In this document: in pieces, positions 5,790-47,420 of the stretch | Layout of the letters: each line of letters begins with the position of its first letter | How positions within the stretch are numbered: the stretch's first letter is position 1 | NCBI RefSeq assembly: GCF_030296915.1 | Contig: NZ_AP028031.1 | Span: 759,001-823,000 of the forward strand | Reading direction: 5' to 3' | DNA from: Anaerostipes hadrus ATCC 29173 = JCM 17467 | Lineage (GTDB): Bacteria; Bacillota; Clostridia; Lachnospirales; Lachnospiraceae | Length of the DNA: 64,000 nt | The notes under the pieces: model-generated | Databases searched by the model: none | Seen by the model: only the letters and a program-made list of their open reading frames with translations | Told to the model about the DNA's origin: nothing | Made by a program: the position numbers and the translations under genes

Positions 5790-6010
5790 TACTCAAACAC
5801 ATCGAGAAATTGAAGTCCTTGCGGATACTTCTTACTGCTTCAATGTGTATGCTTTGGCGATTATAAACAATACGCTACTCACAAGTTCTTGTACACTCCA
5901 CAGTCGTAAATTCCTGCGATAGCCCGCAGTACATACTTACGTTTGCTTTCATTATGCAACTTCGTAAGTTAAAGCATCTCTTAGATTAAGAGCAGCATTA
6001 AAATCCCTAT
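5790..6010 (-). ncRNA. candidate omega RNA (TnpB guide scaffold)
   Basis: In IS605 and IS607 elements the RNA guiding TnpB derives from the end of tnpB and the region after it. Here the 160 bases after the tnpB stop hold no frame but contain pairing segments: minus-strand ATTGAAG near 5838 with CTTCAAT about 22 bases on, enclosed by CACAT/ATGTG. The guide would be the flanking host sequence just beyond the element end. Boundaries and activity are inferred. Confidence 0.35.
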
Positions 6011-27377: not shown

Positions 27378-27408
27378 ATTGTGATTTGAATGACGAAAAT
27401 TATTGGTG

Positions 27409-27563
27409 GAATATTATAAAAAGAGATCATATGTTTGCAACCCACTCGCGTTCGGACTCCCACGTAGCTGTACTAAGCTCCTGAATGGTCTAATGACCAT
27501 CCACTCGCTAAGTGCAGACGTGTCCGTACGGTTGCCAACACATGATCTCTTTTTATAATATTC
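27409..27563. repeat. large hairpin repeat A
   Basis: Arms 27409-27430 and 27542-27563 are perfectly complementary over 22 bp (GAATATTATAAAAAGAGATC... and its reverse). They extend to 33 bp with two mismatches (27409-27441/27531-27563). The 89-base interior can pair further (CGT-CGGAC with GTCCG-ACG) and has a small hairpin ATGGTC-TAAT-GACCAT at its centre. There is no open frame with a ribosome site. It may act as a terminator for putP, but its size and internal structure suggest a repeat element of a family seen in Lachnospiraceae intergenic regions. Confidence 0.75.
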
Positions 27564-27709
27564 AAATAATTTACGTTATTCAAACCACTACACAGTGTGT
27601 ATGTTTTACTGTATGGGCATTTATAATAAACATTTGTCTGTTACTAAAAAATTTGAAAACCGATAACGTTCAACATACAATACTTAATTTTATACGAGAA
27701 TGTCTTCAG

Positions 27710-27909
27710 GTATTCATAAAAACACAAAGAAAGATAGAGGTACGAAATAGTAGAATTCCATAGGATTTTTTGCAAAATCGCAGCCAACACGGGCACTGTT
27801 TGAACGCAGTGAGTTGTGCAGGAGTGTTGGCGGATCAGCGTTTTGCAAAAAATCCGTCAATGGAATTCGTTTTTCGTACCTCTATCTTTCTTTGTGTTTT
27901 TATGAATAC
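27710..27909. repeat. large hairpin element B (shares core with element C)
   Basis: A 200-bp near-palindrome: 38 bp at each end are perfectly complementary (starting GTATTCATAAAAACACAAAG) and pairing continues to the apex. Conserved islands shared with the element at 47165-47379 are CGCAG on the left, G-R-ATCAGCG on the right, and GTTTGAAC...GTGAGTT with flanking GCA/TGC at the apex. Arms differ in sequence between the two but remain paired in each. The DNA between A and B (27564-27709) holds nothing I can name. Confidence 0.75.
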
Positions 27910-28004
27910 TCGATACATTTCCGTTATACAACTTAAAATTTCAAAGCACTTTTCTTTTTTGTATACATACCATGATAGTATAAAAGAAGAAAAGGAAAAT
28001 AGAG

Positions 28005-46845: not shown

Positions 46846-47164
46846 AAACAAAAACCCCCATAAAATTAAAAATAACAATAAATTGATTAATTAGAGTATA
46901 CAAGCTATTGAATGAAAAGTCACGGAGTATAAATTAAACAGAAAGTACTTTCTACGAATCTAATTTTGATAGTGATGGAGGGAAGTCTAAAAAAATTATT
47001 AGACACCGATTTAGCGAGATATTTGGAAAATCTTTTATCTTAATTCTTACAAGATTAAAATGAGAGAATTTCAGTTTTCGATTATCCTGAAAATGTAAAG
47101 CAATATAGTAAAACATACATACTGTGAAATTTGATTTATTGGATTTAATACCTGTAAACTTTAG

Positions 47165-47379
47165 GTATCTTAGGAAAACGAAATAAAAGAATAGAAGATC
47201 CAGAACCATTGAAATTTTGCCGTTATTTTGATCGGTTCGCAGCAAATTTGGTGCATTGTTTGAACTCGCGTAGCGAGTGAGTTATGCAAGGAAAATTTGC
47301 GAATCAGCGACCGGTCAAAATGGCGAGCAAAATTTCTGGTCTGGATCTTCTATTCTTTTATTTCGTTTTCCTAAGATAC
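47165..47379. repeat. large hairpin element C (shares core with element B)
   Basis: A 215-bp near-palindrome with ends starting GTATCTTAGGAAAACGAAAT. The outer 40 bp of the arms are perfectly complementary; the inner part pairs with bulges. It shares with the element at 27710-27909 the islands CGCAG (left), GAATCAGCG (right) and GTTTGAAC...GTGAGTT at the apex. The tip stem is longer here (CTCGC-GTA-GCGAG). It ends 42 bp before the MerR gene promoter. The 320 bases before it show nothing further I can name. Confidence 0.75.
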
Positions 47380-47420
47380 AGAAAGACTACAGCTATTACA
47401 CCAGCAAATTAAAATTCCTC

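Follow-up and report, generated by a model that had tools for sequence, protein, structure and literature searches.

A giant-hairpin repeat of Anaerostipes hadrus that has probably moved into gene 3′ ends as a transcription terminator

What kind of element forms a near-palindrome whose long arms differ from place to place and still pair around the same unpaired islands: a structured RNA, a mobile hairpin, or something that ends transcription? The question arose in a 64,000-nt stretch of the A. hadrus ATCC 29173 chromosome (hereafter the window; positions 759001–823000 of the 2.80-Mb single-contig genome), in which an earlier note, made from the sequence alone, had described one large hairpin at 27710–27909 and a second at 47165–47379. 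Both hairpins are real: the segment 27679–27940 folds at −118.7 kcal/mol (z-score −16.8) and the segment 47128–47416 at −134.8 kcal/mol (z-score −18.0), with 0 of 200 shuffled sequences folding as well in either case. The arms are longer than the note had them, reaching outward to 27679–27747 and 27872–27940 in the first copy (78% complementary) and to 47128–47204 and 47340–47416 in the second (83% complementary). The parts of the first copy and its surroundings, together with the second copy, are as follows.

27576–27597, minus strand: what looks like the leftover 5′ foot of a divergent hairpin of type C, CAAACCACTACACAGTGTG (by eye)
27598–27617, minus strand: inverted partner of the flank site, TGTATGTTTTACTGTATGGG, with a spacer of ~40 nt between the two (by eye)
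27660–27679, plus strand: conserved 5′ flank site CCGATAACGTTCAACATACA (flank comparison)
27679–27940, plus strand: giant hairpin, a subfamily A copy, genome place 786700–786909 (fold, arm complementarity)
27759–27859, plus strand: core matched by covariance model R1 over model positions 1–129 (102.1 bits, E 6.3e-25, a copy of the same core being included in the model)
27779–27783, plus strand: 5′ island CGCAG, its A unpaired opposite GGATCA (alignment; CGCAG is part of the selection expression)
27791–27792, plus strand: GG of the GG/AGGA internal loop (alignment)
27797–27803, plus strand: TGTTTGA, 5′ half of the apical internal loop (alignment; the pattern also occurs in other genomes)
27811–27815, plus strand: GAGTT, 3′ half of the apical internal loop (alignment)
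27820–27823, plus strand: AGGA, 3′ half of the second internal loop (alignment)
27832–27837, plus strand: GGATCA, a 6-nt bulge on the 3′ side, followed by GCG paired with CGC (fold, alignment)
47128–47416, plus strand: second giant hairpin, a subfamily E copy with its core at 47218–47328 (R1 109.5 bits; fold, arms)

By its sequence, the first copy looks like one half of a former divergent pair, with a remnant of its partner at 27576–27597. The flank-site pair at 27598–27679 is inverted around the ~40-nt spacer, and this spacer is found by eye in both orientations elsewhere in the genome. At 5832–5904 of the window, the minus strand carries a RAGATH-18 RNA (75.5 bits).

The two window hairpins belong to a larger family. 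Pattern and BLAST searches of the same genome supplied many further copies, and a simple expression requiring CGCAG and RATCRGC yielded 32 on the fetched stretches. Covariance model R1, built from 30 distinct copies, matched over its whole length at least 46 distinct copies in 51 selected stretches of this genome (weakest E 1.7e-16), a lower bound because only stretches with earlier matches were searched. The islands had been placed correctly beforehand; the 30-copy alignment adds a bulged T, the GG/AGGA loop and an apical stem of variable length. From the outside in, a unit of roughly 230–340 nt consists of long arms, the bulged T followed by CGC/GCG, an A opposite GRATCA, an 8-bp helix, GG opposite AGGA, a helix of 4–5 bp, TGTYTGA opposite GAGTT, and the variable apical stem. 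The constancy of CGCAG and RATCRGC is partly by construction, since copies were selected by them, but TGTYTGA, GAGTT, GG and AGGA played no part in the selection. Paired stretches measure 85–130 nt per side in the 32 copies, 130 nt being the maximum of the fold window.

Six subfamilies, A to F, have the islands in common and differ in their arm sequences. That the arms differ and yet stay paired, as had been claimed, thus applies between subfamilies; within a subfamily the arms are alike in sequence, with five other subfamily A copies being 92–97% identical to the first window copy. Some form of the conserved 5′ site (CAATA..GT..AACATACACACC) precedes 28 of the 32 copies (by eye), and the 3′ foot ends in ACAAATTAAAATTT or variants. 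Six pairs of copies lie back to back, with 270–367 nt between the model matches, and such divergent pairs have roughly inverted termini (AAATTTTAATTTGT ... ACAAATTAAAATTT and variants). At two genome positions, 623295–623394 and 2071132–2071241, A-type arms occur with the core absent, matching query positions 1–59 plus 161–210, or 1–68 plus 158–210.

A second repeat, which we call the Y element, lies at 27402–27570 of the window and has 41-nt arms around an 87-nt centre. The genome holds 17 near-full and about six partial Y elements, and by our own count 11 of the near-full ones are followed, a few hundred bases downstream, by a giant hairpin of like orientation. Outward promoter-like sites (TTGCCA/TTGCAA-16-TATAAT) are present at both of its feet. 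At genome position 2605893–2606140 (L110, L119), a B-type giant hairpin has its inner arm joined directly to the left half of a Y element, so members of the two families recombine with, or delete into, one another.

How far does the family extend beyond this genome? Exact patterns of the own type were found in none of 40 relatives, ten of which are of the same genus. R1 matched in five of 397 genomes of the bacterial family, the present one included, in a scan with stricter filters and eight candidates scored per genome, which may miss weak relatives. Each of the eight outside loci found by the model combines long paired arms with the apical motif; for one of them (L125), the minimum-energy fold shows a different pairing of the inner part. 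The apical motif, written as TGTYTGA[A/G]C-N1-28-G[C/T]GAGTT, reaches much further, occurring in 101 of the 397 genomes (96 of 334 genera) with up to 64 matches per genome, versus 0–2 per genome, mostly single, in ~32 of 397 genomes for the reversed control pattern (own count). As the control touches that many genomes, single matches are doubtful and many may be due to chance; at least four matches are present in 31 of the 397. Across the phylum, the stricter GC form of the motif occurs in 46 of 398 genomes. Among 86 motif places in the fetched loci, 54 are enclosed by at least 40 pairs and 21 by fewer than 20, and the 54 deep hairpins span about 120–480 nt. The distribution is patchy, and the apical internal loop recurs in other genera with unrelated arms. 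By eye, a bulge of 6 nt beneath it on the 3′ side recurs too (AATAAG, GATAAG, TTTTAG, ATATAG).

Outside these genomes, phage and plasmid records gave no match in a distant blastn search with the window copy. The two-gap core pattern of the own type returned four records from the species collection, three Burkholderia and one Acidobacteria MAG, which we would guess to be chance, and none from viral contigs. Broader viral-scan matches, folded among the matches listed, were mixed: some were coding, some were hairpins of 33–48 pairs. One 42-kb viral contig (IMGVR_UViG_3300010373_001371; L253 and L262) carries four apical-motif hairpins of 33–34 pairs, each followed by a similar GC-rich and then T-rich tail.

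Pairing is well preserved among the copies. On the 30 distinct copies 93.8% of cells pair, as compared to 74.4% in shuffles, a comparison inflated by relatedness because all copies come from one genome; the safer control is to slide one side by 1–3 columns, whereupon pairing falls to 35.5–47.1%. Changes are two-sided in 25 of the 36 pairs. The 30-copy alignment and the tally of at least 46 copies support the family as proposed: non-coding, structured, present in many copies, and built of compensating arms around internal loops that stay constant.

The earlier note had gone further and taken the compensating arms as the mark of structural selection on an RNA. Strong covariation and constant loops would indeed fit a structured non-coding RNA, transcribed in the sense of the TGTYTGAGC strand, with internal loops as binding sites for a protein or ligand, a reading that we nevertheless consider unlikely. 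We folded each hairpin and its complement for 52 hairpins from other genomes, i.e. the 54 deep hairpins minus two from the own genome (L143, L306). The island strand was the more stable one in 43 of the 52 (the reverse in 9) and in 20 of the 32 own copies (the reverse in 11), which points to the island strand as the one that folds, though the constant islands alone could produce this. The apical stems likewise show 16 G-U versus 1 A-C pairs on the island strand among 76 distinct sequences that were picked by eye from the motif matches listed and are uncorrected for relatedness (short 19–20-nt forms and long coding-looking ones excluded). They thus lean to the strand antisense to the neighbouring gene, as would fit single-stranded DNA or RNA alike. 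To this extent the evidence favours the claim of RNA selection.

Were one strand acting as an RNA, G-U pairs would be expected to outnumber A-C mismatches on it. The long arms show no such lean, and G-U pairs are about equally frequent on their two strands: in the 52 hairpins they make up 169 of 4387 pairs on the island strand and 154 of 4361 on the complement, with the island strand ahead in 19 hairpins, the other strand in 21 and a tie in 12. The own copies lean the opposite way (79/2747 on the island strand versus 123/2840 on the reverse strand, 32 copies), an excess that is no proof of a gene-sense RNA because the copies are related. G-U over A-C counts for consensus pairs (14/5, 30/6 and 23/5) were set aside, since these pairs had been chosen by RNA energies on that same strand. 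Among close copies, cells with one versus both sides changed number 46/39, 163/154 and 120/122, and 13 of 30 doubly changed pair columns are of transversion types, to which no G-U path leads (own count). Because the long arms lack a G-U strand bias in other genomes and their two sides frequently change together, covariation is no proof of an RNA. Arm-to-arm templated correction explains the doubly changed columns as well as selection does; it easily fits the changes in close copies and a copy at 1022893 in which another copy's right arm stands against an unmatched left arm, which selection for RNA pairing fits less well. The islands persist although templated correction would erase them, and so probably experience selection while folded.

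Further evidence on transcription of the island strand is mixed. In its favour, the Y element upstream of some copies has outward promoter-like sites. Against this, the island strand runs antisense towards the neighbour's stop codon, and a promoter shared by the flanks was not seen: the first window copy has TTGAAA-17-TACAAT and the second nothing on the plus strand. Nor did Rfam provide the family name that had been missing at the outset, since no family reached the gathering cut-off at the hairpin locus; the best score, MIR8562 at 44.1 bits against a cut-off of 211, reads as a generic match to a long hairpin.

Where, then, do the hairpins sit? In 36 of the 46 own copies, the stop codon of a convergent gene lies 64–95 nt past the end of the model, where the hairpin has its 3′ foot, and hence in a 32-nt window and in one orientation. 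The same test is passed by 739 of 11475 non-ORF window positions (6.4%) and by 2208 of 124400 positions overall (1.8%); the ORF calls behind the placement counts are mechanical and not annotation. A right-hand ORF accompanies 49 of the 52 hairpins from other genomes; it is convergent in 32 (median gap 21 nt, 21 within 40 nt) and runs the other way in 17. Left-hand ORFs lie within 40 nt in 4 of 46 cases. Polarity is thus as in the own genome but looser. The position directly behind the stop, taken by those 36 of 46 copies, is that of an intrinsic terminator, and the arms of most subfamilies contain, as read from the sequence, palindromes in an A-tract/stem/T-tract layout (e.g. AAAAAATAAATAAACGATCGG...CCGATCGTTTATTTATTTTTT). 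Ten of the 46 copies lack the stop placement, both window copies among them: the ORF that follows the first runs in the same direction, and the second lies between divergent ORFs. With such neighbours a terminator is unexpected at either window copy; a terminator scan called none at either, its 8-nt loop limit excluding hairpins of this kind.

The closest relative, G007, has no match to R1 or to the apical motif, and was used as a view of the state before insertion. (Gene names bioB, htpG, hom and ychF are what we take the proteins to be.) The bioB-like gene, for instance, is the same up to its TAA in G007, where a small inverted repeat and a T-run follow. Of 18 stop-adjacent genes, 16 have an orthologue there. 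In 11 of these 16, the 70 nt that follow the stop reach a folding energy of −13.2 kcal/mol or below, and in five they fold weakly (−1.8 to −9.4 kcal/mol), one of the five having been read in a slipped frame; these energies stand without a shuffle control. The earlier note had held that an ordinary terminator would not look like the hairpin at 27710–27909. The element is indeed no ordinary terminator, but most copies stand in place of a small terminator-like stem of the relative. Between the two genomes, the proteins end on the same residue in 8 of 15 cases and differ in the last few in 7 (by eye; orthologue 841680 was left out for its slipped frame). The exact ending AAATTTTAA is found in four of the 18 own genes; it matches the element's terminal sequence, and these ends were probably supplied by the element.

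Flank distances in the own genome and in G007 are 777 versus 56 nt (2606027), 425 versus 131 nt (274685) and 1186 versus 126 nt (1856547); a fourth two-sided comparison (261187; 789 versus 683 nt) shows no empty site. In the three two-sided comparisons with this diverged relative, no target-site duplication was recognised. The element is thus absent at orthologous sites in one relative, and most likely it reached gene ends in the A. hadrus lineage by arrival or by exchange, a replacement read from G007, the other nine genomes of the same genus having been checked by exact patterns. In G007, two genes that we take to be htpG and the homoserine dehydrogenase gene hom have convergent 3′ ends ~1 kb apart (C4 126637–127978). 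In A. hadrus they lie ~546 kb apart (1856547 and 2402398) and each is followed by a giant hairpin; the hairpins may mark points of rearrangement.

These placements bear on a second alternative, a plain MITE or foldback parasite without a role for the host, whose position behind stop codons would merely reflect what selection tolerates. The family is non-coding and multi-copy and has terminal inverted repeats, as MITEs and foldback elements do; its subfamilies are lineage-specific and comprise many near-identical copies, and the paired form has roughly inverted termini. However, tolerated insertions should scatter over 3′ UTRs in both orientations rather than gather in one narrow window and one orientation, and the stem found downstream in the relative is missing here. 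An apical loop that recurs in other genera with unrelated arms likewise exceeds the behaviour of short-TIR MITEs. We regard this alternative as quite improbable.

Integron attC sites lie behind a stop codon in fixed orientation, and fold as one strand that is recognised by its bulges. A folded single-strand recombination site working in this manner would share the polarity and stop-codon position, the favoured island strand and the variable apical stem with fixed bulges, and would suit the separation of the htpG- and hom-like genes with a hairpin at each, but it is very improbable, as no core-site consensus was recognised and the neighbours read as housekeeping genes, not cassettes.

REP/RAYT and IS200/IS605 (Y1 HUH) elements have a short hairpin with a conserved tetranucleotide at the foot. 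With 85–130 nt paired per side and a foot of AAATTAAAATTT or variants, the giant hairpins do not belong with them. A Y1 (HUH) transposase is likewise disfavoured as the mover: PF01797 occurs in 16 of the 31 copy-rich genomes, i.e. those with at least four apical-motif matches, and is absent from 15, as compared to 219 of 397 overall, so that there is no association (counts by eye). The A. hadrus genome itself has seven PF01797 (Y1_Tnp) matches.

Among known repeats, the Efa repeat of Enterococcus faecalis, also named EFAR, has a role as a bidirectional terminator. A 2006 survey describes Efa and the Ype repeats as dispersed hairpins located preferentially near gene 3′ ends and suggests that they stabilise co-transcribed mRNA (PMC1590033). 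The present family is alike in being dispersed and near gene 3′ ends, and unlike them, by the description in the accessible part of that survey, in that its hairpins hold several internal-loop islands that stay fixed, its subfamilies have arms unrelated to one another, and its apical motif extends over many genera. NEMIS and ERIC belong to other organisms, and the same part of the survey mentions neither a stop-codon polarity nor these islands for them (PMC1590033). The MRSC-65-2 motif of a 2024 ncRNA survey resembles our family in its single long covarying stem and its copy number, often dozens per genome; its authors suspect a selfish element and allow for a DNA structure (PMC11109978). Its conserved repeat, by the description in the accessible part of that survey, is UYCCGG and not the present islands (PMC11109978).

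Low-GC Firmicutes carry A/T-flanked terminator-like stems of 30 to 50 nt close behind stop codons that the accessible part of the 2006 survey leaves unexplained by repeat families (PMC1590033), and perfect inverted repeats peak behind stop codons according to what was accessible of a 2026 survey (PMC13155455). Stems of the former type follow many of the G007 orthologues, unlike the giant hairpins, which are roughly 230–340 nt long, repeated and equipped with fixed islands. In a literature search, with subscription papers outside it, neither the motif nor such an exchange of terminators was found named.

Taken together, we think it rather probable that the giant hairpins are a mobile repeat that takes possession of the 3′ ends of genes and probably acts there as a transcription terminator. 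They would be non-coding, mobile foldback units with fixed unpaired islands, some arranged as divergent pairs around a spacer between inverted sites, whose 3′ foot would settle directly behind the stop of a convergent gene in place of the gene's small terminator. As predicted bidirectional terminators, the arms would end transcription from both sides, and insertions behind a stop may be tolerated for this very reason. A trans-acting protein may recognise the folded island strand and move the hairpin. Arm-to-arm correction would keep the arms complementary, selection would preserve the islands between them, and recombination between copies would reshuffle neighbourhoods.

More tentatively, and possible rather than probable, mobile hairpins recognised by their structure may form a widespread class that replaces terminators: a factor would read the fixed bulges in one folded strand and insert the hairpin, or swap it in, precisely after stop codons and in a single orientation, rewiring 3′ ends at dozens of loci, while arm-to-arm correction would lend the hairpins the look of a covarying RNA. 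The placement rule itself, behind the stop and in one orientation, would make a search for the responsible enzyme directly testable. If this is true, covariation in long bacterial stems must not count as proof of an RNA, and in many bacteria of the group gene terminators would be exchanged wholesale by mobile hairpins.
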